A DNA stretch of 64,000 bases from positions 62,001-126,000 of the forward strand of contig JAPLDQ010000035.1 of the NCBI GenBank assembly GCA_026391675.1. Reading direction: 5' to 3'. Positions 12,002 through 25,855 of this stretch are shown here, piece by piece (position 1 is the first letter of the stretch; each line of letters opens with the position of its first letter). The DNA comes from Bacteroidota bacterium (lineage in GTDB: Bacteria; Bacteroidota; Bacteroidia; Bacteroidales; JACABE01). A program made the translations under genes and the position numbers. The notes below the pieces were generated by a model, which made no database searches, was not told the origin of the DNA, and worked only from the letters and a program-made list of their open reading frames with translations.

Positions 12002-12025
12002 CGGATGGTTTTTCAAAAACGGCTG

Positions 12026-12033
12026 CAAAGGTA
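12026..12033 (-). promoter_or_regulatory. -7 promoter element for uvrA
   Basis: Minus strand TACCTTTG (TAnnTTTG), 24 bases upstream of the uvrA ATG. No LexA-like palindrome is obvious next to it. Confidence 0.55.
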
Positions 12034-12043
12034 GTAAATATTT

Positions 12044-12075
12044 AGTGATTTTTGGATTTGACGGTTTGGTGATTT
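12044..12075. repeat. Phased 8-base degenerate array
   Basis: Octamers AGTGATTT, TTGGATTT, GACGGTTT, GGTGATTT in a row just upstream of the uvrA promoter. Confidence 0.5.
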
Positions 12076-12184
12076 GTTAAATTATGAATTTATAACATTC
12101 AGATGATGATGCTTAACTTATTAGAATAAAAATGTTAAATTTGACTTTTCAAAAATGCAATTATGCCTTGGTTTCAGTTATTTA

Positions 12185-12643
12185 TTAGTTGTTAAAAATT
12201 TCAATCGGATTGAATTTATGCTTTCTGTCTTTTACAATTAAAGTAGTTGATGGTGCTTTTGATTTGGAAGCAAAAACTATATCGTGACCAATACATAAGC
12301 CCATAACGATATTAAGTTCTGTTTTATTTTCTTCTAAATACTGAGCCTGACCAGCAGGATTGCACATTACACCTTTAACTTCTTCACCTAAATACTCATT
12401 TGCTGGTAATTTACCACATCTGCAATCAACGGTATAAACATCAAAATCTTCTGTTAGTATTTCTTTTAAATAATTCGTCTCTTTTTGTAAGGAGATACAA
12501 TTAGCAATTCCTATTCTTTTAAGCCCTGATAATTTAGCATAATTTCTGATTTCTACAATTCTATTTTCACCCATAGCCAGTGCATTTTCAGCTATTTTCA
12601 TAATTTCAATATCAGAATCATTATATAATGCTTTTTGTTCCAT
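12185..12643 (-). CDS. DUF1847 protein, short form
   Basis: 152 residues. Matches DUF1847 across EIRNYAKLSGLKRIGIANCISL, GVMCNPAGQAQYLEENKTELNIVMGLCIGHD and SKAPSTTLIVKDRKHKFNP. Conserved Cys are in ANC, DCRCG, MCNP and GLCIGHD. Many DUF1847 proteins carry an N-terminal cysteine cluster and are longer; that part appears to be missing here. The family is believed to bind metal but has no known reaction. It is the last gene of the nine-gene redox operon, 4 bases after the rhodanese-thioredoxin gene, so a role in sulfur or thiol chemistry is likely by context only. Confidence 0.82.
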   Translation of the reverse strand: MEQKALYNDSDIEIMKIAENALAMGENRIVEIRNYAKLSGLKRIGIANCISLQKETNYLKEILTEDFDVYTVDCRCGKLPANEYLGEEVKGVMCNPAGQAQYLEENKTELNIVMGLCIGHDIVFASKSKAPSTTLIVKDRKHKFNPIEIFNN

Positions 12644-12647
12644 ATTT

Positions 12648-13358
12648 TTAAAGATTTTCTTTTAATAGCTCTATTAACTGAGCTTTTGAGTGTGCTCCTG
12701 TTTTTTTGTATAAGACTTTAGTATTTTTAAGTATCATAATTGTAGGCACACTTTTAATTTTATAAGTTGCTGCTATTTCCTTGTTTTGCTCAACATCTAT
12801 CTTAATTACCTTCACTTTATCCCTCATTTCATCAGCAATTTCTTTCAAAACCGGAGCCATTACTTTGCATGGGCCACACCATTCGGCAAAAAAATCAACT
12901 AAAACCAATTTATCTTTATTTAGTAAGCTTTTGAACTGGGACTGACTCATTTCATCTTTTGCAGCAGTTGTGGAAGTTGTTTCGGGTAATGCAGCAGCAC
13001 GCCACTTCATCATTCCACCAGAAAGATCATAAATAACTTTAAAACCCTTTGATTGCATTAACTTAGCAGCATATGCGCTTCTGCTTCCACTTAAACAATA
13101 AACAAAAACAGCTTTATTCCTGTCCAGTTTATTTATAAGATTCGTGAAATTATTATCATTAATATTGATATTAATTGCATTCTTTATATGACTTTGATTA
13201 AACTCATTCGGAGTTCGGACATCAACAACCGGAGCTTTGGGCAGTTCATTCATCTTTTTCTGAAAATCAACCGGACTTAAATTCTGTGCATACGAATTTA
13301 ATCCAATGAATATCAATATAGATAACATGCTTAAGAAAATGGATTTACTATTTTTCAT
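12648..13358 (-). CDS. Exported rhodanese-thioredoxin fusion
   Basis: 236 residues: signal peptide (MKNSKSIFLSMLSILIFIGLNSYAQ), a rhodanese domain at about 35-125 and a thioredoxin domain at about 135-236. The rhodanese has VDVRTPNEFNQSHIKNAINI and the catalytic loop VYCLSGSRSA with its Cys. The thioredoxin has VDFFAEWCGPCKVMAPVL and the cis-Pro segment KSVPTIM. A rhodanese takes sulfane sulfur onto its Cys as a persulfide, and the fused thioredoxin can reduce it, releasing sulfide. An exported version would work on thiosulfate or polysulfide in the periplasm. It lies 26 bases downstream of the Fe-S membrane protein gene in the same operon. Confidence 0.92.
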   Translation of the reverse strand: MKNSKSIFLSMLSILIFIGLNSYAQNLSPVDFQKKMNELPKAPVVDVRTPNEFNQSHIKNAINININDNNFTNLINKLDRNKAVFVYCLSGSRSAYAAKLMQSKGFKVIYDLSGGMMKWRAAALPETTSTTAAKDEMSQSQFKSLLNKDKLVLVDFFAEWCGPCKVMAPVLKEIADEMRDKVKVIKIDVEQNKEIAATYKIKSVPTIMILKNTKVLYKKTGAHSKAQLIELLKENL

Positions 13359-13384
13359 TTTATTGTTTTTTATTATTTTATTAA

Positions 13385-13897
13385 TTAAACTTTATAGGTT
13401 AAACTACCGTTTGGACAAACGGCAACACATTCCAGGCATTTTGAACAAGTATAACTATCTCCCGGTTTTTCAGTTTTAGGTTTATACAAACTGTATTTTG
13501 CCGGTTCCATTGCAACTATATAACATTTCTTATCGCAGGCACCACAATTCAGGCAACTGTCGGTGTTGAGTTTTATTCTGAAAAATGAGAACTTATTCAA
13601 CCAACCGGAGACCCATGCTATTGGACATCCTAATTTATGATATTGATACATTTGCTTTATTTTTCCATCAGCATTCATACTCATAAGAATTTCCATAATC
13701 AATCCCATAGGGCACAACCAACGGCAAAAAACTTTACCAAAAATAAAACCAAGTAAAATGCCTGCAAGCACAATATACCAAAGCGAAATGTGATATTGAG
13801 AAATGGCAAAATATAGAGCAATTCCTGAAATTGCCAATATTGCAATTCTTTTATCAACAAGTAATTTTAAAATTTTATTTCCAGATTGAATTCTCAT
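13385..13897 (-). CDS. Membrane ferredoxin, NapH/NosR-like, two [4Fe-4S] sites
   Basis: 170 residues. Residues 14-34 and 36-55 are membrane spans. They are followed by the FCRWLCPMG motif typical of NapH/NosR/CcoG proteins. Two ferredoxin motifs follow: CLNCGACDKKCY (CxxCxxCxxxC with Tyr in place of the usual Pro) and CSKCLECVAVCP. The N-terminus MRIQSGNK is short and basic, so the loop and clusters are probably cytoplasmic. Related proteins pass electrons from quinol or ferredoxin to an exported reductase. In this operon it is a candidate electron donor to the thioredoxins, since no CcdA or DsbD homologue is present (inference). Confidence 0.9.
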   Translation of the reverse strand: MRIQSGNKILKLLVDKRIAILAISGIALYFAISQYHISLWYIVLAGILLGFIFGKVFCRWLCPMGLIMEILMSMNADGKIKQMYQYHKLGCPIAWVSGWLNKFSFFRIKLNTDSCLNCGACDKKCYIVAMEPAKYSLYKPKTEKPGDSYTCSKCLECVAVCPNGSLTYKV

Positions 13898-13905
13898 TAA
13901 GCTTG

Positions 13906-14715
13906 TTATTTGATAATTATTGTTTTTGTTGATGAAGTATGGGCTTTAAAATAGCCTAAAGCATTATTGCTAATATTAGAAACAGGGTTTGCTGGCGTAG
14001 CACTTGATTGGTTAATATTAAGATTAAGACCAAAAAAATAATTATATACAGCTTCATCTATGCATTGCATATCCACTTTTACAATATCATTTTTAGTCGC
14101 TTTAACTCTAAGCGGTCGGTTCGATACCAATCCGTTAAATCCGAAATCACTTTGAATAAAAATATCTTTTTGTATGGTATCGTTTCTGGTAACAACAAAC
14201 TGGAAAAAATTAGCAACATTAGCCGGATCTGTATATACAGGAGTCATTCTCACTATACTATTACTTCCTGTTCCGCCACCAAATGGGCCACCATGGCTGG
14301 TTCCGCTTGAGTTACTATCAATTAGTTGAATATATTCCAGATTAACAATCTGAGGTATTGTTGAACTTGCACTATAAGTTTCAGTGTTAATTTTAACATG
14401 CATAGTGTATGTTTGCCCTGATATACCTTTTAAACTATCATTGGTGTAAATTCCGGGTTTAGTTTCTGTCAAAGTATCTGTTTTATTGGTATTCAAATCG
14501 ATAATTGTAACAAATGCCCCGCTAACAGCTGGATTTGGAATAGTTTCGTCAAAATTTATAGTTTTTGTTATTTTAACACTACATTCTCCTGACAAATTAC
14601 TTAAGTTTCCTTCAATTACAATTCTAGGATTGCTTTTGTTAAGGTTAATTTCTATTTCCTTTTTACAAGAAATCAATAAAATTGCAGCTGATAATATTAT
14701 TATATATTTATTCAT
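13906..14715 (-). CDS. DUF4249 outer-membrane lipoprotein
   Basis: 269 residues with lipoprotein signal MNKYIIILSAAILLISC (Cys17). The mature part begins KKEIEINLNKSNPRIVIEGNLSNLSGECSVKITKTINFDE, the typical DUF4249 opening, with beta-rich domain patterns further on (GAFVTIIDLNTNKTDTLTE, GQTYTMHVKINTETYSASSTIP). DUF4249 genes are regularly found directly after TonB-dependent receptors in Bacteroidota, as here (gap 4 bases), and are thought to be their surface partners. The ligand is unknown. There is a GTSHGGPFGGGTGS insert around residue 140. Its presence inside a thioredoxin operon is unusual. Confidence 0.88.
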   Translation of the reverse strand: MNKYIIILSAAILLISCKKEIEINLNKSNPRIVIEGNLSNLSGECSVKITKTINFDETIPNPAVSGAFVTIIDLNTNKTDTLTETKPGIYTNDSLKGISGQTYTMHVKINTETYSASSTIPQIVNLEYIQLIDSNSSGTSHGGPFGGGTGSNSIVRMTPVYTDPANVANFFQFVVTRNDTIQKDIFIQSDFGFNGLVSNRPLRVKATKNDIVKVDMQCIDEAVYNYFFGLNLNINQSSATPANPVSNISNNALGYFKAHTSSTKTIIIK

Positions 14716-14719
14716 TTTG

Positions 14720-17011
14720 TTAAAATTTAAAATTCCACGAAATTGAAGGTACCCATCTGAACAATGTAGTTTGAACAGCTACTGTTTTATTAGGATCGCT
14801 TGCACTTTGTTCAAAATCTATAACATAAGCATTTTCCCAACCATAAGCATTATACAGACTAAATGATAATTCAGAATTAAAGTGCTTTCTTTCTTTAAAT
14901 TTATAGGTAAGACCCAAATCTAAGCGATGATAGTCAGGCATTCTGTATCCATTCCTGCTTGTATACAGCCAGGATGTTTGTCCGGCAATTTCATATTTTC
15001 CACTAGGGAAAGTAACTGCATTTCCTGTCTGATATACCCATATCGCAGAAACATTCAGTCGCTTACTAATATCATACATTACAACAATTGAAATATCATG
15101 GGTGCGGTCTTGTCTGGAAGGATACCATCCGTTATTATTAATTCCATCAATCTGTTTTTCAGTGCGCGATAATGTATATCCTATCCAACCGGTTAATTTT
15201 CCTTTATTTTTTTTCAGCAGGAACTCAACACCATAAGCTCTGCCTTTTCCGAACAATAACTGTGTTTCAATTACACGGTTACGTTCATCTGCAGCATCTT
15301 TATAGTCAACCTGATTTTGCATCCATTTGTAATAGGTTTCAACACTAAATTCAAATGTATTTTCTTTGAAATTATGGAAATAACCTAAAGAAACCTGATC
15401 GCCGATTTCGGGTTTTATGATATTTGTATTCATTACCCATTTATCTGTTGGACTTGTTGTAACAGAATTATTAATAAGATGTAAGTTTTGTGTATTGCGG
15501 CTGTATGCGATTTTAAGCGAATTACTATTTTCAATAATATAATTCATCGAAAGCCGGGGTTCAAGGTTGACATAGTTTTTTACTGGTGAACTTTGATTAA
15601 TCGTATCAATTATATTTTTTTGATTATCTAATACATAATAATTACTACCACCCAGTACCGTAAAATCAGACAATCTGAGGCCATAGCTTAATTTTATTTT
15701 TTCGGACAATTGCCTTTCATTTGAAATATATAAAGCGGATTCCAGTCCGTTCCTTATATCAGAAAGATTTTCAGTGCTTGTAGCATCTGTAATTTTCCCT
15801 GGTATAACTGTATGATAAATTACATTATAACCTATCCTCCATTCATTGTTATTATTAAAAAAATACTGAATTTCCTGTTTAACATTCCAGTCTCTTACCC
15901 TGGAAAGTATTGAAAATGGATTGGCATTATTTAACAGATTGATATTATAGTCATAATTGCTATAAATCAATGATGTATTTGAAAAAAGTTTATCATTAAA
16001 TAAATGATTATATCTGATAGTTGCTGTTGAATTACCCCAGTCTATTGCAAATCTGTTATTTAAAGACAAAACATCTCTGCCAAAATATCCGGAAACGAAT
16101 ATCTGGTCCTTATCAGAAAAACGATAATTGAATTTAGTATTTAAATCATAGAAATACAGTTGATTATCTTTAAATTGATCAGATAATTTAAGAAAAATAT
16201 CAGCATAAGTTCTTCTTCCTGAAATCAGAAAAGAAGATTTACCTTTTTGGATGGGACCTTCAACATTCAGTTTAGAAGAAATTAAACCTATGCTTCCATT
16301 GGCACCAAAACTCTGATTGTTTCCATCATTCATTTTTAAATCAACAACTGATGAAATCCGGCCCCCAAACTGAGCCGGTGCAGTTCCTTTGTAAAGTGTT
16401 ACCTCTTTTATAGCATCAGAATTAAATGTCGAAAAGAAACCCATTAAATGCGAGGCATTGTAAACAGGTGCATCATCCAACAAAATAAGATTTTGATCAA
16501 TACTACCTCCCCGAACGGTAAATCCGCTTTGTCCTTCACCTGCCGATTTTACACCGGGTAATAATTGCAAGGTTTTCAATATATCTTTTTCTCCAAAAAT
16601 TACAGGGAGTTTACTGATTGTAATAATATTCAGTTTCTCCATTCCCATTTGTGATTGCGTAATACGGCTATTATCTCTGGTTGATGATATTACGACTTCA
16701 TTAAGTTGGAGACTATTTCCTGTCATGATTACATTGAGCTTTTTGCTTTCAGTCAGGTCAACTTTAATAAGCTGCTCCTGATATCCAATATATGAAAATA
16801 GCAACTCATAACTTCCCTTAGCTAAAGTTAAAGAATAATAACCATAGGTATTGGCTGTAACACCAACCTGTTTGTTGGCTTTATTAACAACACTGGCTCC
16901 TATTAGCGTTTCTCCGTTTTTTTTATCTGTGATATACCCACTAATTGTATAAGATTGAGCAAAAAGAGAATAACTTAAGAAAAGTAAAAAAGTGGATAGT
17001 ATATATTTCAT
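14720..17011 (-). CDS. TonB-dependent receptor with CarboxypepD_reg-like domain
   Basis: 763 residues: signal peptide (ends YSLFAQS), carboxypeptidase-regulatory-like domain at 22-105 (ISGYITDKKNGETLIGASV), plug domain at about 120-230 with LLPGVKSAGEGQSGFTVRGGSIDQNLILLDDAPVYN, and a beta-barrel to the C-terminal WNFKF (aromatic end). No SusC-type signature is evident and its partner is DUF4249, not SusD. It takes up an unknown ligand across the outer membrane using TonB energy. It lies 2 bases after the DUF2892 gene stop in the redox operon. Possible ligands suggested by context are a metal or metallophore for Fe-S/heme proteins, or a sulfur compound; neither can be decided from sequence. 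Confidence 0.94.
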   Translation of the reverse strand: MKYILSTFLLFLSYSLFAQSYTISGYITDKKNGETLIGASVVNKANKQVGVTANTYGYYSLTLAKGSYELLFSYIGYQEQLIKVDLTESKKLNVIMTGNSLQLNEVVISSTRDNSRITQSQMGMEKLNIITISKLPVIFGEKDILKTLQLLPGVKSAGEGQSGFTVRGGSIDQNLILLDDAPVYNASHLMGFFSTFNSDAIKEVTLYKGTAPAQFGGRISSVVDLKMNDGNNQSFGANGSIGLISSKLNVEGPIQKGKSSFLISGRRTYADIFLKLSDQFKDNQLYFYDLNTKFNYRFSDKDQIFVSGYFGRDVLSLNNRFAIDWGNSTATIRYNHLFNDKLFSNTSLIYSNYDYNINLLNNANPFSILSRVRDWNVKQEIQYFFNNNNEWRIGYNVIYHTVIPGKITDATSTENLSDIRNGLESALYISNERQLSEKIKLSYGLRLSDFTVLGGSNYYVLDNQKNIIDTINQSSPVKNYVNLEPRLSMNYIIENSNSLKIAYSRNTQNLHLINNSVTTSPTDKWVMNTNIIKPEIGDQVSLGYFHNFKENTFEFSVETYYKWMQNQVDYKDAADERNRVIETQLLFGKGRAYGVEFLLKKNKGKLTGWIGYTLSRTEKQIDGINNNGWYPSRQDRTHDISIVVMYDISKRLNVSAIWVYQTGNAVTFPSGKYEIAGQTSWLYTSRNGYRMPDYHRLDLGLTYKFKERKHFNSELSFSLYNAYGWENAYVIDFEQSASDPNKTVAVQTTLFRWVPSISWNFKF

Positions 17012-17013
17012 TC

Positions 17014-17220
17014 TTAGCTTCTTTTTTTAATTGTTTTTATCCCTAAGGGCAAATATAATGGACAAAATCCCATTAGTGCTGTAAGTATAAAAACGGCAGA
17101 AATGATAAATAAAATAATTGCGAATGTTCCTGAAATTACATTCGTAAAATACAAAATTGCAACAACAACAGCTACCAATATCCTGATAATTCTGTCAATA
17201 TTTCCCATGTTTTTTTTCAT
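17014..17220 (-). CDS. DUF2892 (YgaP-like) inner-membrane protein
   Basis: 68 residues. MKKNMGNIDRIIRILVAVVVAILYFTNVISG, then a second span around GTFAIILFIISAVFILTALMGFCPLYLPLGI, then a basic end (KTIKKRS). The NIDRIIR start and the GFCPLYxxLGI motif are the DUF2892 signature. In some bacteria this domain is fused to a rhodanese (YgaP) and linked with sulfur export or persulfide handling. Here it is free, but a rhodanese-thioredoxin protein is encoded in the same operon, which keeps the association. The gap to the upstream thioredoxin gene is 20 bases. Confidence 0.9.
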   Translation of the reverse strand: MKKNMGNIDRIIRILVAVVVAILYFTNVISGTFAIILFIISAVFILTALMGFCPLYLPLGIKTIKKRS

Positions 17221-17240
17221 GATTTTTTTAATTTAATGAA

Positions 17241-17660
17241 TTAATTATTTTGATTTAATTGTTCCCACAAAAATTCTTTTTGCATTACACCTGTAAAACG
17301 GTCAATTTCTTTACCATCTTTAAAGAGAATCAAAGTTGGAATTGTTCGTATATCAAATTTAGTAGCAAGTATCTGACAATCATCTACATTCAATTTACCA
17401 ATTCGGGCTTCTTCATTGATTTTACCGGCAATATCATTTAAAATAGGGTCTTGTGTTTTACAAGGCATACACCATTCAGCCCAAAAATCAACCAATACAA
17501 TGCCTTTGTTGATTTCTTTCTGGAAATTAGTAACATTCAGATGTATGATTTTATCATTTTCAGTTTCAATGGGTGTATACTGCCTCTTATTATAGTTATA
17601 ATATAAGTAAATGAAAAAAATTACAAATCCTGAGCTTAGTAAAATTAGAGTTGTGTTCAT
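17241..17660 (-). CDS. Membrane-tethered thioredoxin
   Basis: 139 residues. Residues 4-22 form one membrane span (TLILLSSGFVIFFIYLYY), followed by a linker with NKRQY and a thioredoxin domain at 42-139 with VDFWAEWCMPCKTQDPIL (CMPC in place of CGPC) and the cis-Pro segment IRTIPTLILF. The positive charges just after the span favour a cytoplasmic thioredoxin domain, but with such a short N-terminus the orientation is uncertain. It lies between the thioredoxin reductase and DUF2892 genes, so it is the likely acceptor of the reductase or of the membrane Fe-S protein. Confidence 0.9.
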   Translation of the reverse strand: MNTTLILLSSGFVIFFIYLYYNYNKRQYTPIETENDKIIHLNVTNFQKEINKGIVLVDFWAEWCMPCKTQDPILNDIAGKINEEARIGKLNVDDCQILATKFDIRTIPTLILFKDGKEIDRFTGVMQKEFLWEQLNQNN

Positions 17661-17697
17661 CTTATTGATTTATAGGGTATTGATTAAATAAAATTTG

Positions 17698-18633
17698 TTA
17701 AATATCAGATTTTCTTTTATGCAAATATTCTGAAACTGCCATTGCGGCAATTGTTGCTTCACCTACGGAAGTTGTAATCTGCCTGTATCGTTTTGCAATG
17801 GCGTCTCCTGCTGCATAAACGCCTTCAATATTGGTAGACATATTATTATCTACAAGAATCTCACCCCATTGATTCATTTTTATCTTGTCTGTTAAAAATT
17901 CAGTATTGGGGACATAACCTATGAAAATGAAAACACCATCTGTTTTGTGATTATTGATTTCGCCAGTTTTCAGGTTTTTAATATCAACACTTTCAAGTTT
18001 GTCATTGCCATGAAAGGCGACAATACCTGATTCCATTATAAAATTAATTTTTTCGTGATTACCGGCTTCATCCACAGCATACTGAAAAGCCTGAAAATGA
18101 TCAAACTGATGAACAATTGTTGCTTTAGAAACATATTTGCATAATGAAACGCTTTCTTCAAATGCTGAATTCCCACCACCAACCACAACTATTTCCTTAT
18201 CAGTAAAAAAATCGCCATCGCAGGTTGCACAATAAGAAATTCCTTTCCCTTTAAATAAATCCTCACCTTCCACATTCAGGGTTCTTGATCTTCCACCCGG
18301 AGCTAATATGACTGAATCGGAAGTATAAATAGTACCATCAGATAAAACCACATTTTTTATCGTTGTATCAAGAACCAAATCTTTAATCATGATATTGGAT
18401 TTTACTTCACAACCAAAACTTATAGCTTGCTTTTTCATAATATTGGATAGCTGATATCCATTGATGTTTTCAACTCCCGGATAATTGGCAATTTCGTGTG
18501 TCAGCACCATCTGGCCTCCAACAGTTCCTTCATTCAGAATCAAGGTTTTTAATCTTGCCCTTGAGAGATAGATACCCGCTGTAAGCCCGGCCGGTCCTCC
18601 TCCGATTAAGATAACATCAAAGTGATTTTGCAT
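17698..18633 (-). CDS. Thioredoxin reductase-like flavoprotein, NADPH motif absent
   Basis: 311 residues. FAD site GGGPAGLTAGIYLSRA at 11-26, redox-active CATC at 135-138, second nucleotide motif VVGGGNSAFEE at 150-160, C-terminal GVYAAGDAI. The usual HRRxxxR motif that grips the NADPH 2'-phosphate is replaced by HQFDHFQ at 175-181. The enzyme may therefore use NADH, or be fed by ferredoxin or another donor as in some anaerobe-type reductases. It reduces a thioredoxin; four thioredoxin-fold proteins are encoded in this operon or near it. The start is 5 bases after the upstream CX6C thioredoxin-like gene. Confidence 0.93.
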   Translation of the reverse strand: MQNHFDVILIGGGPAGLTAGIYLSRARLKTLILNEGTVGGQMVLTHEIANYPGVENINGYQLSNIMKKQAISFGCEVKSNIMIKDLVLDTTIKNVVLSDGTIYTSDSVILAPGGRSRTLNVEGEDLFKGKGISYCATCDGDFFTDKEIVVVGGGNSAFEESVSLCKYVSKATIVHQFDHFQAFQYAVDEAGNHEKINFIMESGIVAFHGNDKLESVDIKNLKTGEINNHKTDGVFIFIGYVPNTEFLTDKIKMNQWGEILVDNNMSTNIEGVYAAGDAIAKRYRQITTSVGEATIAAMAVSEYLHKRKSDI

Positions 18634-18638
18634 ATCTA

Positions 18639-18995
18639 TTATGATTTTTGTAGTTGCCCGAATTCCTGATTCAAAATGGACGTAACCTGTTCCATTGTTT
18701 GAATACTTGAAGTTGCTTTTACTACTTTCCCATTTTTATAATAAATGGTAAATGGAATTCCCATAAATCCCTTTACTTCTGATAAATTACGGATTACTTG
18801 AGATTCAGGATTATCAAATTCCATATCAAAAAACTGAACATGAGAGTATTTATTTTCAATTTCTTCAGCTATTCCATATACAGGAATGCACATGGGACCC
18901 ATACGGCCACATATTACCATTACATTTTCATTTTCTCCGATAACTTTAGCATGGTCAGCTGCTGTTTCGAGGTGTTTTAGATTTGTGTATAACAT
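18639..18995 (-). CDS. Thioredoxin-fold protein with CX6C motif
   Basis: 118 residues from ATG at 18995 (a TTG at 19025 sits in the promoter element). A thioredoxin fold is suggested by NVMVICGRMGPMCIPVYGIAEEIENKY, a helix after the Cys pair, FFDMEFDNPES, and the cis-Pro segment KGFMGIPFTIYYKNGKVV. The canonical CGPC is replaced by C-GRMGPM-C, a six-residue spacing. It is the first gene of the operon and immediately precedes the thioredoxin reductase-like gene, so it may be that enzyme's dedicated partner or may carry a metal or persulfide instead of doing standard dithiol exchange. The family is recognised as thioredoxin-like only. Confidence 0.82.
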   Translation of the reverse strand: MLYTNLKHLETAADHAKVIGENENVMVICGRMGPMCIPVYGIAEEIENKYSHVQFFDMEFDNPESQVIRNLSEVKGFMGIPFTIYYKNGKVVKATSSIQTMEQVTSILNQEFGQLQKS

Positions 18996-19022
18996 AAGTT
19001 TTAATTTTAATAATTTATGATG

Positions 19023-19030
19023 CAAAATTA
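19023..19030 (-). promoter_or_regulatory. -7 promoter element of the nine-gene redox operon
   Basis: Minus strand TAATTTTG, 27 bases upstream of the first ATG (18995). Gaps between the nine genes down to 12185 are 2-37 bases, so one transcript is likely. Confidence 0.55.
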
Positions 19031-19062
19031 TCTTATATAAATCTTTATTTAATGGATTTAGC

Positions 19063-19078
19063 CTTGTATTGCCACAAG
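19063..19078. promoter_or_regulatory. Candidate Crp/Fnr-type operator, CTTGT-N6-ACAAG
   Basis: Perfect 5-6-5 inverted repeat in the divergent gap between the redox operon and a Crp/Fnr gene. Its centre is about 53 bases upstream of the predicted leftward start site. Confidence 0.35.
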
Positions 19079-19107
19079 ATAAAGCTTGAATTACAACAAC
19101 ATATTCA

Positions 19108-19130
19108 TTGATTTAAAACAATTATTTGTT
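19108..19130. promoter_or_regulatory. Overlapping palindromes, candidate Fnr-like operator
   Basis: TTGATTTAAAACAA (19108-19121) is one base from the Fnr consensus TTGATN4ATCAA and overlaps AACAATTATTTGTT (19117-19130), a perfect AACAA-N4-TTGTT repeat. It lies just upstream of the rightward -7 element at 19140, a position suited to autoregulation. Confidence 0.4.
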
Positions 19131-19139
19131 GAATTTAAT

Positions 19140-19147
19140 TAGCTTTG
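19140..19147 (+). promoter_or_regulatory. -7 promoter element for the first Crp/Fnr gene
   Basis: TAGCTTTG, 20 bases upstream of the ATG at 19168. Confidence 0.5.
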
Positions 19148-19167
19148 CAAAATAATTTAATAAGTGA

Positions 19168-19863
19168 ATGAAAACGGTACTAGAAACGGATCAGGATTTT
19201 ATCTGTAATATTGAAGCACCCTGTTTTCAAATGCTTTCGCAAGAAGAAGCTGAACTGGTAAGGGCCGGAAAGACTCAGGTTTTTTTCCGTAAAGGTGATA
19301 ATCTGACCAAGCAAGGTGCATTTGCGTCTTATGTATTGTTTATTATTTCAGGATTGGCAAAACAATATATTGAAGGTGACAGTTCAAGGAGCTTCAATCT
19401 TAGAATTATAAAACCGGGTGAATTTGTAGGGCTTTCTGCTGTGTTTACAAAAAACAAATTTAATTATTCTTCTGTAGCAATCACTGACTGTCAGGTATAT
19501 TTGATAGAAAAAGAATCAATAGCAAACATAGTGCAGCAAAATGGTATGTTTGGTTTTAACATAATAAAAAGGTATTGCGAACAAAATGGAAATCTGTTTG
19601 ATACATTGCGGAATATGATGTTTAAACAAATGAATGGACGTATTGCAGATACATTATTATATTTAGATGGTCTTAAATCTCAAATTCCTGAGATATTCCA
19701 AATCCTTTCAAGGAGAGATATAGCCGATTTCGCAGGTATATCGACCGAAAGCGCTGTTAAACTGCTTAAATCATTTGAAAAAGATAGTTTAATTGAACTT
19801 CACGAGAAAGACATTGTACTTATTGATTATAATTCATTAAAAGAGATAAGTAAGAAAGGATAG
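19168..19863 (+). CDS. Crp/Fnr family regulator 1
   Basis: 231 residues. The N-terminal cyclic-nucleotide-binding-type beta-roll spans about 20-140 (FRKGDNLTKQGAFASYVLFIISGLAKQYIEG, IIKPGEFVGLSAVF). A C-terminal winged helix-turn-helix at about 150-225 includes NGRIADTLLYL and RRDIADFAGISTESAVKLLKSFEKDSLIELHEKDIVLID. Two cysteines at 13 and 19 lie near the N-terminus, fewer than the four of an Fe-S Fnr. It is divergent from the nine-gene redox operon and probably controls it. Candidate operators are in the shared gap. The gene ends tail to tail with the second Crp/Fnr gene, 11 bases apart. Confidence 0.92.
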   Translation: MKTVLETDQDFICNIEAPCFQMLSQEEAELVRAGKTQVFFRKGDNLTKQGAFASYVLFIISGLAKQYIEGDSSRSFNLRIIKPGEFVGLSAVFTKNKFNYSSVAITDCQVYLIEKESIANIVQQNGMFGFNIIKRYCEQNGNLFDTLRNMMFKQMNGRIADTLLYLDGLKSQIPEIFQILSRRDIADFAGISTESAVKLLKSFEKDSLIELHEKDIVLIDYNSLKEISKKG

Positions 19864-19874
19864 ATAAAAAACCA

Positions 19875-20555
19875 CTAACCCTTTTCACTTATCTGTCTGA
19901 GAAGTTTATCGTTTAGAATTGTTATCTGACGGCCATTTACTTCCAGAATTTTATCATTGTTAAATTCGGTAAATATACGGCTGCAACTTTCACGGGAAAT
20001 ACCTGCCAATGCAGCTAACTCCTCTCTGGTAACCGGTAATCTGAAAGTATTTGAATTGTAAATGATATTGGCAAAAAACAAAATAACATCAGCAACCCTA
20101 CCTATGTTTTGTTTTTGAGCATTATTAAGGCAGTTATGAAAATTCTGAAGTTCACTTTTGCTCATGTCTAAAATAATCTGATAAGCAAAATCGCCATTTT
20201 CATAAATTAACTTTTTGAACATATCAACATTAATAAAACAAACTGTAGTCGGCTCCAGTGCAGTTGCAGAAAAATGGTTTTTCTTATCACCAAAACTACT
20301 GGGAAGACAAATATATGCAGGAGCTTTTGTTATTTTAATGATTTTATCTTTAATACTTCCTTCAATATGAATCTTAACCAAACCGGATTTAAGATAAGCC
20401 ACATTGGTTGAATGCGCATCCTGTTTGATAATGATATCACCCGGCTGGAAATGAGTTTCAGCACAATTTTCACCCAGCATAAATAATTCAGCTTCATTAA
20501 GCTGTTGCGCAGCATCTGATTTTAAATTACATAACTGACAGATAGTCTTGTTCAT
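19875..20555 (-). CDS. Crp/Fnr family regulator 2
   Basis: 226 residues. The beta-roll domain includes FQPGDIIIKQDAHSTNVAYLKSGLVKIHIEG. The C-terminal helix-turn-helix is well conserved (NIGRVADVILFFA, RLPVTREELAALAGISRESCSRIFTEFNNDKILEVNGRQITI). The N-terminus MNKTICQLCNLKS has a CxxC pair, with Cys31 (ENCAET) and a mid-domain Cys (YICLPS) as possible further ligands, so an Fe-S cluster of Fnr type is possible but not shown. It is divergent from the octaheme cytochrome gene and so is the likely regulator of the sulfur-respiration genes to the right. Its fold is the same as regulator 1 but the two are only distantly similar. Confidence 0.92.
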   Translation of the reverse strand: MNKTICQLCNLKSDAAQQLNEAELFMLGENCAETHFQPGDIIIKQDAHSTNVAYLKSGLVKIHIEGSIKDKIIKITKAPAYICLPSSFGDKKNHFSATALEPTTVCFINVDMFKKLIYENGDFAYQIILDMSKSELQNFHNCLNNAQKQNIGRVADVILFFANIIYNSNTFRLPVTREELAALAGISRESCSRIFTEFNNDKILEVNGRQITILNDKLLRQISEKG

Positions 20556-20749: not shown

Positions 20750-22186
20750 ATGAGAATTTTTTTATCAAAAATTTATAAACTCCGCTTCATCGGAATAGCG
20801 CTATTGCTGATAATAGTGGCAACTTCATGCAATAATGGCTCCAAAACCAGCAAGGATTCAGGGCAAGTCCCTGAAAATCCACTTACAGGACGCTTGCAGC
20901 CTCATCTGGATCACTCTGCCTATTTCAAGGATACAATTGATTCACCGCAAAAAGTGACCCGTATGTGCCTCAAATGCCACCCAAATAGTGCTAAAGAAGT
21001 AATGCAAACGGCGCACTGGACATGGATAAGCGGTGATGTTGTAAGGAATGGTAAAACAGTGCTTCTTGGAAAGCGTAATCAGATCAATAACTTTTGCATC
21101 AGTGTAGTTGGCAACTGGGGTTCCTGTGTAATATGCCATGCCGGATATGGCTGGGGAGACATGAGTTTCGACTTTTCAAAAGAAGAAAATGTTGACTGTA
21201 TTGTATGCCACGATGGTTCAGGCACATATTCAAAAACAAAGCTTGGTATGCCTAATAAATCTGTCAATTTACGTGTAGTTGCTGCAAGTGTACGCCGGCC
21301 CTATCGGGAGAATTGCGGTATCTGTCATTTCAATGGCGGTGGTGGTATGGGAGTAAAACATGGAGACCTTGACGAATCTTTACTGAATGCAAACCAGGAG
21401 CTTGACTACCACATGGGAAAGCTCAATTTTCAATGTATAGATTGCCATAAAACACACAATCATGTTATTTCCGGTAAATTGAATACCACATATACTGAAA
21501 AGACCAGGGCAATCCGTTTTGGATGTGAGAATTGTCATACCGATAAACCACATAAAGACCACCGGATCAATGAACACACTGATAGAATAGCCTGTCAAAC
21601 CTGCCACATACCTGAGTTTGCCAGAAAGTACCCGACAAAAATGACATGGGACTGGTCGAAAGCAGGTGACTCCAACAGAAAAGACAGTCCGCACGAATAC
21701 CTGAAGATAAAGGGTGAATTCCATTATGAGGAAGATGTAATTCCCACTTACGCCTGGTATACGGGAAAAATGGATCGTTACGTACTTGGGGACAAGCTCG
21801 ATTCAGAAACTGAGCACAACATGAATCATCCGATTGGTTCACGCAATAATCCCAAGGCAAAGATTTGGCCTTTTAAAGTGCATCATGCCAACCAACCCTA
21901 TGATCCGGTAAATAACATAATTATACCTCCGTTAACCAGTGGAGAAGGCGGATACTGGACCAAGTTTGACTGGGCATATGCCATAAAGAAAGGTGCAGAA
22001 ATCAATGGTTTGCCCTATAGTGGCAAATATGGCTTTACACATACAAAGATGTATTGGCCGATTACACATATGGTTACAATAAAAAAGAATGCATTGAGCT
22101 GTAAGCAATGTCATTCTTCCGGAGGCCGTTTGAACTGGAAAGAACTGGGATATGACCATGATCCGCTTCAGGTAGTTAAGCAATAA
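20750..22186 (+). CDS. Octaheme c-type cytochrome, tetrathionate reductase (Otr) family, lipoprotein
   Basis: 478 residues with lipoprotein signal (IIVATSC, Cys27). Eight CxxCH heme sites begin at residues 73, 126, 150, 189, 229, 259, 282 and 451. The spacing, the CLKCHPNSAKEVMQTAHWTW opening and NWGSCVICHAGYGWG agree with the Shewanella-type octaheme tetrathionate reductase family. That enzyme reduces tetrathionate, and also nitrite and hydroxylamine in vitro, at a heme with a lysine axial ligand; which Lys serves here cannot be told by eye. It heads a four-gene rightward operon with two sulfur transporter halves and a membrane multiheme cytochrome b/c protein. Likely a lipid-anchored terminal reductase for a sulfur oxyanion. 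Confidence 0.9.
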   Translation: MRIFLSKIYKLRFIGIALLLIIVATSCNNGSKTSKDSGQVPENPLTGRLQPHLDHSAYFKDTIDSPQKVTRMCLKCHPNSAKEVMQTAHWTWISGDVVRNGKTVLLGKRNQINNFCISVVGNWGSCVICHAGYGWGDMSFDFSKEENVDCIVCHDGSGTYSKTKLGMPNKSVNLRVVAASVRRPYRENCGICHFNGGGGMGVKHGDLDESLLNANQELDYHMGKLNFQCIDCHKTHNHVISGKLNTTYTEKTRAIRFGCENCHTDKPHKDHRINEHTDRIACQTCHIPEFARKYPTKMTWDWSKAGDSNRKDSPHEYLKIKGEFHYEEDVIPTYAWYTGKMDRYVLGDKLDSETEHNMNHPIGSRNNPKAKIWPFKVHHANQPYDPVNNIIIPPLTSGEGGYWTKFDWAYAIKKGAEINGLPYSGKYGFTHTKMYWPITHMVTIKKNALSCKQCHSSGGRLNWKELGYDHDPLQVVKQ

Positions 22187-22208
22187 TCACAATATAAAAA
22201 ATTGTACA

Positions 22209-22730
22209 ATGAAAAAAATACCAAAAAAAGTCAAAAATCCATATTTTGCCGGAACTATACTCGGAGTGGTTCTTTTTGCTGCTTTTGCATTAACGCACAG
22301 TGGTTTGGGTGCCTCAGGAGCAATCAGCCGCATACAGGTGGCTATTACAAAATTGTTCTGGTCAGCACATGTTGACCGTGTAGGTACTTTTGCTGCTATG
22401 GGAGCAGGCGACCGCAATGCCCTGGATCACCCAAGCATGTTTCTTTTAATCGGAACATTTGCCGGAGGTTTGATTTCTGCATGGTATAATGGCAGATTAA
22501 AAATTGAAATTTTCAAGGGTCCGAAAATAACAAATTATCAACGGCTTTTCTTTGCGCTTTTAGGTGGAATAATTATGGGATACGGAGCACGTTTTGCACG
22601 TGGTTGTACATCAGGACAGGCTTTATCAGGAGGTGCGGTTCTTTCACTGGGAAGTTGGGCATTTATGTTCAGTGTATTTTTAGGAGGCTATGCTGTTGCA
22701 TATTTTGTACGTCGTCTTTGGGCTGATTAA
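22209..22730 (+). CDS. YeeE/YedE family transporter, first half
   Basis: 173 residues, about four membrane helices. The motif GYGARFARGCTSGQALSGGAVLSLGSWAF, with a conserved Cys in GCTSG, is the YeeE/YedE signature. TsuA of this family moves thiosulfate through a channel lined by conserved cysteines. The protein is about half the length of TsuA, and the next gene supplies a second YeeE/YedE domain, so the two probably form one transporter. The start is 22 bases after the octaheme gene stop. Likely substrate: thiosulfate or sulfane sulfur (inference from family and context). Confidence 0.9.
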   Translation: MKKIPKKVKNPYFAGTILGVVLFAAFALTHSGLGASGAISRIQVAITKLFWSAHVDRVGTFAAMGAGDRNALDHPSMFLLIGTFAGGLISAWYNGRLKIEIFKGPKITNYQRLFFALLGGIIMGYGARFARGCTSGQALSGGAVLSLGSWAFMFSVFLGGYAVAYFVRRLWAD

Positions 22731-22753
22731 TTTAAAAAAAGGAGAAATTTATT

Positions 22754-23950
22754 ATGTTACCTGTTGATATTATTGCAGAACTTGGAAAAGCCGGCGGATA
22801 TGCGGTCTTCTTCCTGATTGGTACCGGATTTGGCATTGCGCTGGAATTGGCCGGATTTGGTGATTCACGCCGTCTGGCAGCTCAGTTCTATTTAAAAGAC
22901 ATGACAGTCTTAAAAACAATGTTTACAGGTATTCTTGTAGCCTGTCTTCTGATTTTTCTTTCAGCAGCATTGGGGCTGCTTGATTTCTCTCAGCTTGCTG
23001 TTAACCAAACATTCCTTTGGCCCGGTATTGTCGGAGGACTCATTATGGGTGTTGGCTTCATCGTTGGTGGCTATTGCCCCGGAACTTCGCTTGTGGCAAC
23101 TGCAAGTTTCAAAATCGACGGACTTTTCTTCCTTGTCGGAACAGTTATAGGCGCCGGTCTGTTTGGAGAATCCTTACCGGCATTTGAAGATTTCTGGAAT
23201 TCTTCTTTCACCGACCGTTTTCTGGTCTCCGACTGGTTGGGATGGTCCATTGGTGCTACAGTGTTTGGGGTGACAATTTTTGCTTTAGTTATGTTTTACG
23301 TTGCTGAAAAAGTGGAAGAATATTTTAAATATAAAGCTACCGGAAATGCATGGTCATGGAAAATTACTAAACGTCCATATCTTTATGGCGCAGGAATATT
23401 GATAGCTGTTGCAGCATTGATTTGGGCTATCGGGCAACCTGATCCGATACGTAAATGGAAAATAATGGAAAATAAGTATTCCGGACAGCTTGTGTCAAGA
23501 GCTGTATTTATTCATCCACTGGAATATGTAAAAACAAATAACGAATCCACAATTAAACTCATTACCCTTGACCTGCGACCGAATAAGGATTTTGCTGCAT
23601 TTCATCTGGCTGGCTCAGAAAATGTAAAACTTGATAATCTTTTAGATGCTAAGTTTATAGCACCACTTGCTCAGCTTCCACCTAACGGAGTTGTCGTTCT
23701 CCTGGCAGATAACGATTCAATCTCCATCAAAGCATGGCAATACCTGAAAGTTCAGGGAGTAATTAATTTATATATACTTGAAAACGGTTTACACAACTGG
23801 AATAGCCTTTTTGCTGATAAAACAATTCACGGGAAGACATTCAATCCTGCTTCTCCACCGGTAGAAGTACTTCAATTATTCCCTAAAAATACATATATAA
23901 CCAAAATCAAAATAGGTTCCAAGAAACGTGCAGGAGGACTTTGCAGCTAA
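22754..23950 (+). CDS. YeeE/YedE transporter half fused to a cysteine-less rhodanese domain
   Basis: 398 residues. Residues 10-230 contain five or six membrane helices with GTGFGIALELAGFGDSRRLAAQFY and the Cys-bearing FIVGGYCPGTSLVATASFKIDG. Residues 260-370 resemble a rhodanese: LITLDLRPNKDFAAFHLAGSENV and ENGLHNWNSLF match the fold, but the catalytic loop reads VVVLLADNDSISIKAW with no cysteine. The domain is therefore unlikely to carry a persulfide itself and may act as a docking or gating module. It has a good purine-rich ribosome site (AAAGGAGAAA) before ATG at 22754. A CSS-type end (AGGLCS) gives one terminal Cys. Confidence 0.88.
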   Translation: MLPVDIIAELGKAGGYAVFFLIGTGFGIALELAGFGDSRRLAAQFYLKDMTVLKTMFTGILVACLLIFLSAALGLLDFSQLAVNQTFLWPGIVGGLIMGVGFIVGGYCPGTSLVATASFKIDGLFFLVGTVIGAGLFGESLPAFEDFWNSSFTDRFLVSDWLGWSIGATVFGVTIFALVMFYVAEKVEEYFKYKATGNAWSWKITKRPYLYGAGILIAVAALIWAIGQPDPIRKWKIMENKYSGQLVSRAVFIHPLEYVKTNNESTIKLITLDLRPNKDFAAFHLAGSENVKLDNLLDAKFIAPLAQLPPNGVVVLLADNDSISIKAWQYLKVQGVINLYILENGLHNWNSLFADKTIHGKTFNPASPPVEVLQLFPKNTYITKIKIGSKKRAGGLCS

Positions 23951-23965
23951 TTTTTATTAAATCTT

Positions 23966-25855
23966 ATGAATAAATTATCTTCAACATTAAAAATACTAAG
24001 CTTTCTGATAATTTTCAGATTGCTATCACCGCAGGCGACAGCACAAACCGCTACAATTTTCGCTCCATCCAATATGGAGTGCATAAGCTGCCATGAAAAA
24101 AAGATTTCCATGCATGCATATAATGCTTCTGTCCATCATTCGCTGATGTGCACGGCCTGTCACGTTAAAGATGAAACAAAACAGCCGGTAGTTAAGATTT
24201 TAGCAGGAAAAAAACTGTGTAATGTTTCATTTAAACCCATGAATTGCGGCAGTTGCCACAATTCAGTTGTGAAAGAACATGAAGCAAGTGTTCACAACGC
24301 TCAGCGGCTTCCTGTCACCTGCTCAAAATGCCATGTAGACATCCATAATATAACTTCTATCAAAAATAATAAGCTGGCTTCTGCCAAACTTTGCGGAGAA
24401 TGTCATAAGAAAGTATCACACTATTTCAATTCTATACATTATCAGGCACTTGTCAAAGGAAATATGGATGCACCCGGCTGCATTGATTGTCATGGTAATC
24501 ATAATATTAATAAAATTGATAATGACGCTCAGGGGAGATCGTTTCATACACAGGCATGTTTGAAGTGCCACGCTGATGTGAAAATGATGATACGTAACAA
24601 AGTGACCACCATTGCACCTGAAACCTATTTTGAAAGCTATCATGGTAAAAACATGCGGCTCGGCTATCCGGAAAAGGTTGCAGGCTGTTCAGACTGCCAT
24701 AGCTCACACAATATTCTTCCTGCAAAGGATAGCAATTCAACTATTAATAAAGCTCATTTAGCCAATACCTGCAAACAATGTCACAAGGATTCCGGTAATA
24801 AATTTACCAGGTTTATTGCTCATGCAGAACCCACCAACCACAGTAAGTTTCCTCTGCTTTTCTGGGTTACAAATAGCATGAATGCCCTATTGATAGGAAC
24901 CTTCCTTTTCTTCTGGATTCATTCTTTACTCTGGGCATTCAGGGGCTTTGTCGAAAAAAGACAAATTCGCAATGCAGCTTTCTTTAATAAACCTGCAGCT
25001 GCTTCCAGGCAACATCAGAAAATCAACAGAAAAGTTTACAGACGCTTCAAACCAGTTCATATAATTCTTCATTTGTTTGTCGTGACAAGTTTTCTTGGAT
25101 TGGCTTTAACCGGTCTTCCGTTGAAATTTAATCATACCCTGTGGGGCAAGGCATTAATGAGTTTTTATGGTGGATCCGCTAACGCCGGTTTGATTCACAG
25201 GATTTGTGCCGTCATTACTTTTGGTTATTTAATTGTAGCCATGGTGATGAGCTGCCATTTTCTGTTTTCTAAAAAAATATCAAATGAAAGCTTTTTCCAA
25301 CGCCTTTTTGGTTATGATTCCCTTTTCCCTAACCGTAAAGATTTTCGCGATATAAAGGCAATGTTTCGCTGGTTCTTTTTCAAAGGACCAAAGCCAAAAT
25401 TTGACAGATGGACTTATTGGGAAAAGTTTGATTTTCTGGCCGTTTTCTGGGGCGTAGCCATTATCGGGTCAAGCGGATTACTCCTTTGGTTTCCTGAATT
25501 CTTTGGAAAATTCCTGCCGGGTTGGCTTTTTAACGTTGCAACCATCATTCATTCAGACGAGGCGCTGTTGGCTGTAGGTTTCATCTTTACCATCCATTTC
25601 TTCAACACTCACTTCCGTTTTGAGAAGTTTCCGATGGACTTTGTCATATTCAACGGTCAGGTAACGGAGGAAGAAATGATAGACGAACGCAGTGAACAGT
25701 GGGAGCGTTATCAAAAGCAAGGTATTACTGAAGACTTCGAAGTGCATAAACCCACTCCTCTCATCTGGGAAGTTGCCATGCGCGTGTTTGGCTTGCTGGC
25801 TGTACTTATCGGTATCACACTTGCATTACTGATAATATATACCTTCATCAGTTAA
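23966..25855 (+). CDS. Nine-heme cytochrome c fused to cytochrome b-type membrane domain
   Basis: 629 residues. A signal sequence (to about residue 27) is followed by nine CxxCH sites beginning at 39, 62, 94, 119, 143, 172, 198, 241 and 269. Then comes a membrane domain from about 295 to the end with His-bearing helices (PVHIILHLFVVTSFLGLALTGLPLKF, LIHRICAVITFGYLIVAMVMSCHF, FTIHFFNTHFR), as in cytochrome b-type quinol dehydrogenases of thiosulfate reductase or formate dehydrogenase. This architecture takes electrons from quinol in the membrane and carries them out through the c-hemes. In this operon the natural acceptor is the octaheme lipoprotein. The gap to the preceding gene is 15 bases. 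Confidence 0.9.
   Translation: MNKLSSTLKILSFLIIFRLLSPQATAQTATIFAPSNMECISCHEKKISMHAYNASVHHSLMCTACHVKDETKQPVVKILAGKKLCNVSFKPMNCGSCHNSVVKEHEASVHNAQRLPVTCSKCHVDIHNITSIKNNKLASAKLCGECHKKVSHYFNSIHYQALVKGNMDAPGCIDCHGNHNINKIDNDAQGRSFHTQACLKCHADVKMMIRNKVTTIAPETYFESYHGKNMRLGYPEKVAGCSDCHSSHNILPAKDSNSTINKAHLANTCKQCHKDSGNKFTRFIAHAEPTNHSKFPLLFWVTNSMNALLIGTFLFFWIHSLLWAFRGFVEKRQIRNAAFFNKPAAASRQHQKINRKVYRRFKPVHIILHLFVVTSFLGLALTGLPLKFNHTLWGKALMSFYGGSANAGLIHRICAVITFGYLIVAMVMSCHFLFSKKISNESFFQRLFGYDSLFPNRKDFRDIKAMFRWFFFKGPKPKFDRWTYWEKFDFLAVFWGVAIIGSSGLLLWFPEFFGKFLPGWLFNVATIIHSDEALLAVGFIFTIHFFNTHFRFEKFPMDFVIFNGQVTEEEMIDERSEQWERYQKQGITEDFEVHKPTPLIWEVAMRVFGLLAVLIGITLALLIIYTFIS

Follow-up and report, generated by a model that had tools for sequence, protein, structure and literature searches.

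Background

Canonical NADPH-dependent TrxB/TrxA systems combine a reductase that carries a CATC redox motif and the motifs GxGxxA and HRRxxxR, the latter being the NADPH motif, with a thioredoxin-fold partner whose active site reads WCGPC. We analysed a related system in a 64,000-nucleotide stretch of DNA from a Bacteroidota bacterium of the order Bacteroidales (GenBank assembly GCA_026391675.1, contig JAPLDQ010000035.1, positions 62,001 to 126,000; hereafter, the window). Its reductase belongs to the same family and retains CATC and GxGxxA, and its partner also has a thioredoxin fold, but HQFDxFQA stands in place of HRRxxxR, CGRMGPMC replaces WCGPC, and a Crp-type regulator is encoded divergently. 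The thioredoxin and reductase genes open a nine-gene operon on the minus strand (18995 to 12185), one form of a modular thioredoxin system that is widespread. As judged from sequence alone, we give roughly an even chance to its being a hub of thiol redox chemistry whose cargo genes can be exchanged and, in this instance, serve sulfane sulfur.

Several parts of the operon recall other described proteins. YgaP consists of a rhodanese with a DUF2892 membrane domain; the same two elements occur together here, but as separate genes, and the rhodanese is predicted to be exported and is fused to a thioredoxin. NapH/MauN proteins (TIGR02163) share a membrane part and two 4Fe-4S motifs with the NapH-like protein of the operon, although the latter has only 170 amino acids and one CX3CP, and scores 41.3 bits against a cut-off of 213.05. 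Bacteroides thetaiotaomicron likewise has an adjacent receptor and DUF4249 gene, BT2172-BT2173, which are reported to act together (PMC11003636), whereas the pair in the window is embedded in a thioredoxin operon. Thioredoxin reductases that lack HRRxxxR are also known. The Thermoplasma enzyme is reported to use NADH and not NADPH (PMC6262447), and clostridial FFTRs are described as lacking both NAD(P)H motifs, GxGxxA and HRRxxxR (PMC10880999). The reductase in the window shares the absence of HRRxxxR with FFTRs but retains GxGxxA, and in its donor logic is closest to the Thermoplasma enzyme.

Operon organization

All nine open reading frames listed in an earlier note on this DNA were found, and recomputed gaps between them are 5, 37, 20, 2, 4, 8, 26 and 4 bases in operon order, confirming the range of 2 to 37. 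The domain assignments in that note also agree with Pfam and NCBIfam searches for every gene. Its first gene starts at the ATG at 18995, and a TTG at 19025 merely lengthens the open frame. The short gaps and a single conserved promoter/operator region support the proposal that the genes form one transcription unit. Only one terminator-like site was found in 11900-19300, and it lies on the plus strand. A scan for sigma-70-type promoters returned 39 candidates, compared with 38.9 expected.

Thioredoxins, reductase and electron route

The first gene (18639..18995, minus strand, as for all nine) encodes a 118-amino-acid protein with no Pfam match at E 0.01 and a weak thioredoxin match in NCBIfam. 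An AlphaFold model made from 15 orthologues (predicted local distance difference test score 87.7) has a thioredoxin fold, with 3gnj as its best PDB match (VIA-align; Z 15.6, 108 residues, root-mean-square deviation 2.1). The CXXC active site of thioredoxins is not found in this protein; instead, 84 of 85 distinct orthologues have a CX6C pair, which reads CGRMGPMC in 83 and CGRMDPMC in one. The orthologue in locus L150 (position 10001) lacks the first cysteine and reads LGRMGPMC.

The second gene (17698..18633) encodes the TrxB-like reductase, with CATC, GGGNSA and, at the donor site, HQFDHFQA. CATC is present in all 72 orthologues, and 68 of these carry HQFDxFQA; the other four are unmatched by the pattern, and the reductase of L077 reads HQFNHFQA. 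HRRD occurs at this site in none of the orthologues matched by the pattern, while another TrxB of the same genome has VRRDELRA there. The canonical TrxB profile TIGR01292 gives the window's protein 330.1 bits, below its cut-off of 343.45. These counts support the donor-altered reductase proposed in the earlier note. We considered whether the enzyme is an FFTR, a class defined by the loss of both nucleotide-binding motifs, and rejected this assignment since GxGxxA is kept as GGGNSA. Because of this motif, NADH is probably the simplest donor. Loss of HRRxxxR need not imply an iron-sulfur donor, given that the Thermoplasma reductase without it uses NADH.

The third gene (17241..17660) encodes a membrane-anchored thioredoxin (Pfam) with the active site WCMPC. 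Positive charges follow the transmembrane segment in 69 of the 70 aligned rows that have such a segment (duplicates kept; four further rows have none), one of the 69 (L083_8358) resembling a lipoprotein by eye. By this charge rule, the protein is predicted to be oriented N-out/C-in, and its thioredoxin domain probably faces the cytoplasm. Therefore, export is predicted for only the rhodanese-thioredoxin of the eighth gene (12648..13358; Pfam), whose signal peptide was read by eye.

The earlier note proposed a non-standard electron route to exported thioredoxins, partly on the grounds that no CcdA or DsbD is present. This absence holds for the operon itself but not for the genome, which has a 718-amino-acid DsbD-type frame and CcdA-type frames at three other places (PF02683 at C6 with 90.2 bits and C26 with 43.4; PF13386 at C36 with 165.2 and C26 with 83), so an ordinary route to the exported thioredoxin exists. 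Together with the probable cytoplasmic orientation of the membrane thioredoxin and a possibly NADH-dependent reductase, these homologues weaken the proposal. The NapH-like protein (13385..13897; Pfam, NCBIfam) carries two 4Fe-4S motifs, and the full set of 11 cysteines is present in each of the 32 distinct sequences that are at least 50% identical to it. An iron-sulfur route to the periplasm through this protein is possible, but is not required. The operon ends with a DUF1847 gene (12185..12643; Pfam).

A divergent regulator and its putative operator

CrpA (19168..19863, plus strand; Pfam cNMP_binding and HTH_Crp_2) is a 231-amino-acid regulator of the Crp/Fnr family. Among orthologues of at least 58% identity, C19 is present in 73 of 73, C13 in 72, C137 in 64 and C108 in 60. 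Another member of this family, PgRsp of Porphyromonas gingivalis, is described as redox-sensing (PMC6955866, PMC12040651).

Upstream of the operon, three TTG-N8-CAA palindromes lie on the minus strand at 19108-19121, 19086-19099 and 19064-19077 (overall 19064..19121) with a 22-base spacing, and constitute a putative CrpA operator. They are followed by TAATTTTG (19023..19030, minus strand), a promoter box of the Bacteroidota -7 type, whose consensus we take to be TAnnTTTG. The middle palindrome is 69 bases from this box, an arrangement that matches relatives. Regions shorter than 100 bases were dropped and identical sequences removed, which left 85 distinct upstream regions. In 51 of these, TTG-N8-CAA precedes TAnnTTTG by 68 or 69 bases, as opposed to 0.004% of mononucleotide shuffles, and this set comprises 43 different operator sequences. 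Of 70 palindrome-box distances, 51 equal 68 or 69. The box is found at -37 to -32 from the ATG in 40 of the 85 regions and in 0.4% of shuffles. This conserved spacing argues for one regulated promoter.

The palindrome without the spacing constraint is present in 54 of the 85 regions and in 6% of shuffles, but its enrichment is partly post hoc, because the motif was derived from the same sequences. A stricter operator, TTGT-N6-ACAA, was rejected, as it is found in merely 5 of the 85. From the position and conservation of these sites and from its own conserved cysteines, CrpA reads as a cysteine-based activator that would bind at the single promoter of the operon.

Distribution of the conserved core

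The conserved core of the system consists of the Crp/Fnr-type regulator, the CX6C thioredoxin, the HQFDxFQA reductase and the membrane thioredoxin, behind which variable genes are located. The CX6C gene is present in 103 of 393 sampled genomes of the order, about a quarter (E<=1e-30), and in 20 of a sample of 395 across the phylum (E<=1e-20). NapH-like orthologues occur in 26 of the 393. The CX6C gene is present in 21 of these 26, compared with 103 of 393 overall (Fisher P 2.4e-9, uncorrected for relatedness), and missing from five (G006, G229, G233, G350 and G392). Within 9 kb of the NapH-like gene in the 25 loci besides the window, we detected CX6C in 15, CrpA in 15, the membrane thioredoxin in 15 and the reductase in 13.

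When named genomes were scanned with the CX6C alignment, at least 589 pattern matches emerged, at least 584 of which encode a relative. The best 80 were kept, and this set consequently leans to close kin. Near the CX6C gene in these 80 loci are TrxB (at least 45% identity) in 72, CrpA (at least 45% identity) in 70 and the membrane thioredoxin in 52. Identity thresholds were set for the counts in the 25 and 80 loci, and identical sequences were removed for motif counts. Gene labels in neighbourhoods are best blastp matches at E<=1e-4, of which the weak ones do not imply orthology. The 26-locus and 80-locus sets have 10 records in common, and some contigs in both are short.

Because the core and its divergent regulator recur across many genomes, the grouping is more than the chance arrangement that the earlier note had allowed for. 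The synteny search suggested there had a mixed outcome: the order of the core is widespread, but the exact order receptor-DUF4249-NapH was seen in only two genomes, both of this genus. No description of the core was found in the literature searched, subscription journals being mostly outside our reach, and it is apparently an undescribed but widespread thioredoxin system of Bacteroidales. With its altered active site, altered donor site and conserved operator, the system would offer a handle on reactive-sulfur management in anaerobic Bacteroidota. Since the core occurs in the named strains Alkaliflexus imshenetskii, Geofilum rubicundum and Proteiniphilum acetatigenes, the system can be tested.

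The receptor-DUF4249 pair

The fifth gene (14720..17011) encodes a 763-amino-acid TonB-dependent receptor with CarbopepD_reg_2 and plug domains (Pfam). The sixth (13906..14715) encodes a DUF4249 protein with an invariant Cys17, a lipoprotein as read by eye. Its model is rich in beta structure and has just generic beta-sandwich matches in the PDB (query TM-scores of 0.19 to 0.34 in the 50 listed). None of the ten proteins scanned matched SusD at E 0.01, and the immediate neighbours of the receptor are the DUF4249 protein and a YgaP-like DUF2892 membrane protein (17014..17220; PF11127).

The pair lies within clusters of six genomes from three families: the window, G002, G001 and G003, and G173 and G392, which belong to other families. 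G002 matches the window in gene order as far as DUF4249-NapH and carries an additional thioredoxin behind NapH; an in-frame stop divides its receptor. The receptors of G001 and G003 sit in clusters of the ArsM type, and G001 also has a NapH cluster without a receptor. Within the genus, the pair occupies either of two clusters. Other clusters, too, carry the module without one. The nearest relative has a receptor gene interrupted by an in-frame stop (L037, 9511-11802).

In a phylogenetic tree of receptors, those within clusters fall in two places, and the starred branches force at least two label changes. The G173 and G392 receptors group at 100/100 with those of L123 and L125, which are both outside such clusters, near RND genes. 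In this tree, 10 of 21 inner branches are open, three own-genome rows have very long branches, the stretches behind the "out" label of L105 and L107 are too short to show the neighbourhood, L104 and L129 are one sequence, and the G002 copy was left out. A single origin of the in-cluster receptors was rejected on account of the label changes, although gain followed by loss would also fit them. Most simply, the pair would have been recruited into clusters twice or more.

The receptor is not specific to the cluster. Of the 393 order genomes, 317 have a member of its family (E<=1e-100). Surroundings were read for 19 receptor places, and 13 of these lie outside such clusters; we rejected cluster specificity for these reasons. 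At four of the 13 (L121, L123, L125 and L127), the relatives of the receptor and its DUF4249 partner have RND efflux genes (ACR_tran) close by. The commonness of the family in the order, the receptor-free NapH cluster of G001 and the restriction of the exact gene order to two genomes of the genus would all suit a neutral insertion, in which the pair has no functional link to the operon. We regard this as rather unlikely, in view of the same-strand placement of the pair, the gaps of 2 and 4 bases around the receptor and the repeated label changes on the tree. Moreover, the in-cluster receptors of G001 and G003 are undamaged at 86-87% identity, even though the G002 copy has a stop. Thus, the receptor is genuine cargo of the module, in an exact gene order found in this genus only, and the proposal that it has some functional tie to the redox genes gains support. 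The narrower suggestion of the earlier note, uptake coupled directly to reduction, is more speculative, given the clusters that carry the module but no receptor and the 13 receptor places outside clusters.

Cargo genes and possible functions

Across genomes, the genes behind the core include SLAC1/TehA with DUF302, SQR-like, TauE, YeeE, thioredoxin-glutaredoxin, GroES-like, OsmC, rhodanese and NapH-like genes. A further module comprises an ArsM-like methyltransferase, a radical SAM/SPASM protein, a thioredoxin-TrxB fusion and DUF302. By best match, none of the 25 NapH loci is without a further module gene inside 9 kb; in L084 this is SLAC1 alone. Sulfur genes in this range are SQR-like (7 loci), SLAC1 (6), octaheme tetrathionate reductase (OTR; 3), YeeE (2) and TauE (1). 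Full-length YeeE-type transporters (PF04143) are located on the same strand behind the core and a methyltransferase in L164, L170, L176 and L178.

Next to the operon in the window is a second group of genes on the plus strand. An octaheme cytochrome c of the tetrathionate reductase family (20750..22186; TIGR04315, 547.3 bits against a cut-off of 375; PDB 1sp3, E 5.4e-129) precedes a split YeeE/YedE sulfur transporter (22209..23950), with the C-terminal half of PF04143 followed by an N-terminal half fused to rhodanese. A multihaem cytochrome c with a cytochrome b561-like part below the Pfam cut-off (23966..25855) may form the tetrathionate reductase's quinol side. Three loci of the same family (L037, L038 and L039) have this operon next to the cluster as well, and it was not seen in L040. 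Between it and CrpA is CrpB (19875..20555, minus strand), a second regulator of the Crp/Fnr family that, from its place, probably regulates the neighbouring operon. The sulfur theme raised in the earlier note is borne out by this adjoining operon and by the SQR-like, TauE, YeeE and SLAC1 genes of other clusters. Because tetrathionate reductase and YeeE adjoin the thioredoxin operon, sulfane-sulfur handling fits best and, judged by context, is the most likely role.

A different role is suggested by a paralogous cluster on another contig of the same genome (L113, 4777-12650), which encodes a CrpA homologue (CrpA', 56%), OsmC, the membrane thioredoxin, DUF2892, an ArsM-like protein, radical SAM/SPASM, a thioredoxin-TrxB fusion, DUF302 and a methyltransferase that matches TehB as well. 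The system might accordingly be a hub for detoxification of arsenic, selenium or tellurium, with the thioredoxin chain regenerating reductant for ArsM-type methylation and related steps and the receptor taking part in metalloid traffic. The ArsM-like protein of L039 aligns three cysteines with those of solved arsenic methyltransferases, where they presumably function in As(III) binding. SLAC1/TehA genes in other clusters, and the location of the receptor in ArsM-type clusters of G001 and G003, are consistent with this idea. However, the ArsM-like score is 197.7, under the cut-off of 263, the operon in the window has no ArsM gene and adjoins a tetrathionate reductase/YeeE operon, and SQR-like, YeeE and TauE genes recur elsewhere. 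On balance, we consider a metalloid hub an unlikely explanation.

Some cargo instead resembles a stress response, including thioredoxin-glutaredoxin genes in 15 of the 80 loci, members of a GroES-like family in 11 and of an OsmC family in 3 (for the latter two families, Pfam was run on one member each). With the conserved cysteines of CrpA and the redox-sensing reported for PgRsp (see above), these genes would fit a general disulfide or oxidative-stress operon, i.e., a reserve thioredoxin system that thiol oxidation switches on, in which the cargo performs repair and the receptor is merely co-regulated. This explanation leaves the YeeE, SQR, TauE and rhodanese cargo and the adjoining OTR operon unaccounted for, and appears improbable to us.

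Several observations count against a thiol-redox hub for sulfane sulfur under CrpA control. As many as 34 of the 85 upstream regions lack the spaced motif. Searching the window's own genome with this motif gave 6 matches and the reversed control also gave 6, so a wider regulon cannot be claimed. DUF2892 is near the CX6C gene in only 18 of the 80 loci, NapH in 17 and rhodanese-thioredoxin (at least 55% identity) in 3, and for this reason the sulfur part is regarded as optional. To these can be added the wide occurrence of the receptor family in the order and the mixture of ArsM-like, OsmC and GroES-like cargo, which also points to metalloid or general thiol stress.

If the sulfane-sulfur reading is correct, CrpA would activate the one promoter through the TTG-N8-CAA sites, and the reductase, probably driven by NADH, would reduce both the CX6C thioredoxin and the cytoplasm-facing membrane thioredoxin. 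The exported rhodanese-thioredoxin might accept persulfide sulfur in the periplasm and free it reductively, while DUF2892 and the NapH-like iron-sulfur protein would work at the inner membrane. Under the same control, the receptor-DUF4249 pair could take either a substrate or a cofactor through the outer membrane, and the adjoining tetrathionate reductase/YeeE operon may generate or import thiosulfate-type sulfur. A bolder generalization, which we find possible but doubtful, would make the CX6C protein and the HQFDxFQA reductase a thioredoxin system in its own right, hitherto undescribed, of Bacteroidales. A Crp/Fnr sensor with cysteines would switch it on in response to reactive sulfur, and it would act as a common electron plug for exchangeable sulfur or metalloid modules, among them an outer-membrane receptor that imports their substrate.

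Additional observations

In the window, a single operon beside the thioredoxin operon (20750-25855) combines octaheme tetrathionate reductase, a rhodanese-fused split YeeE and a multihaem cytochrome b/c. A plasmid search with the NapH-like protein returned 2 distant Parabacteroides records. A locus titled candidate division TM6 (L199) carries a cluster much like that of L194, from Bacteroidetes, and is probably a mis-binned contig. In L074 (2250-3128), a 292-amino-acid protein without a Pfam match at E 0.001 has two cysteine-rich stretches, and its best-match relatives are in clusters L146, L157, L164 and L190.

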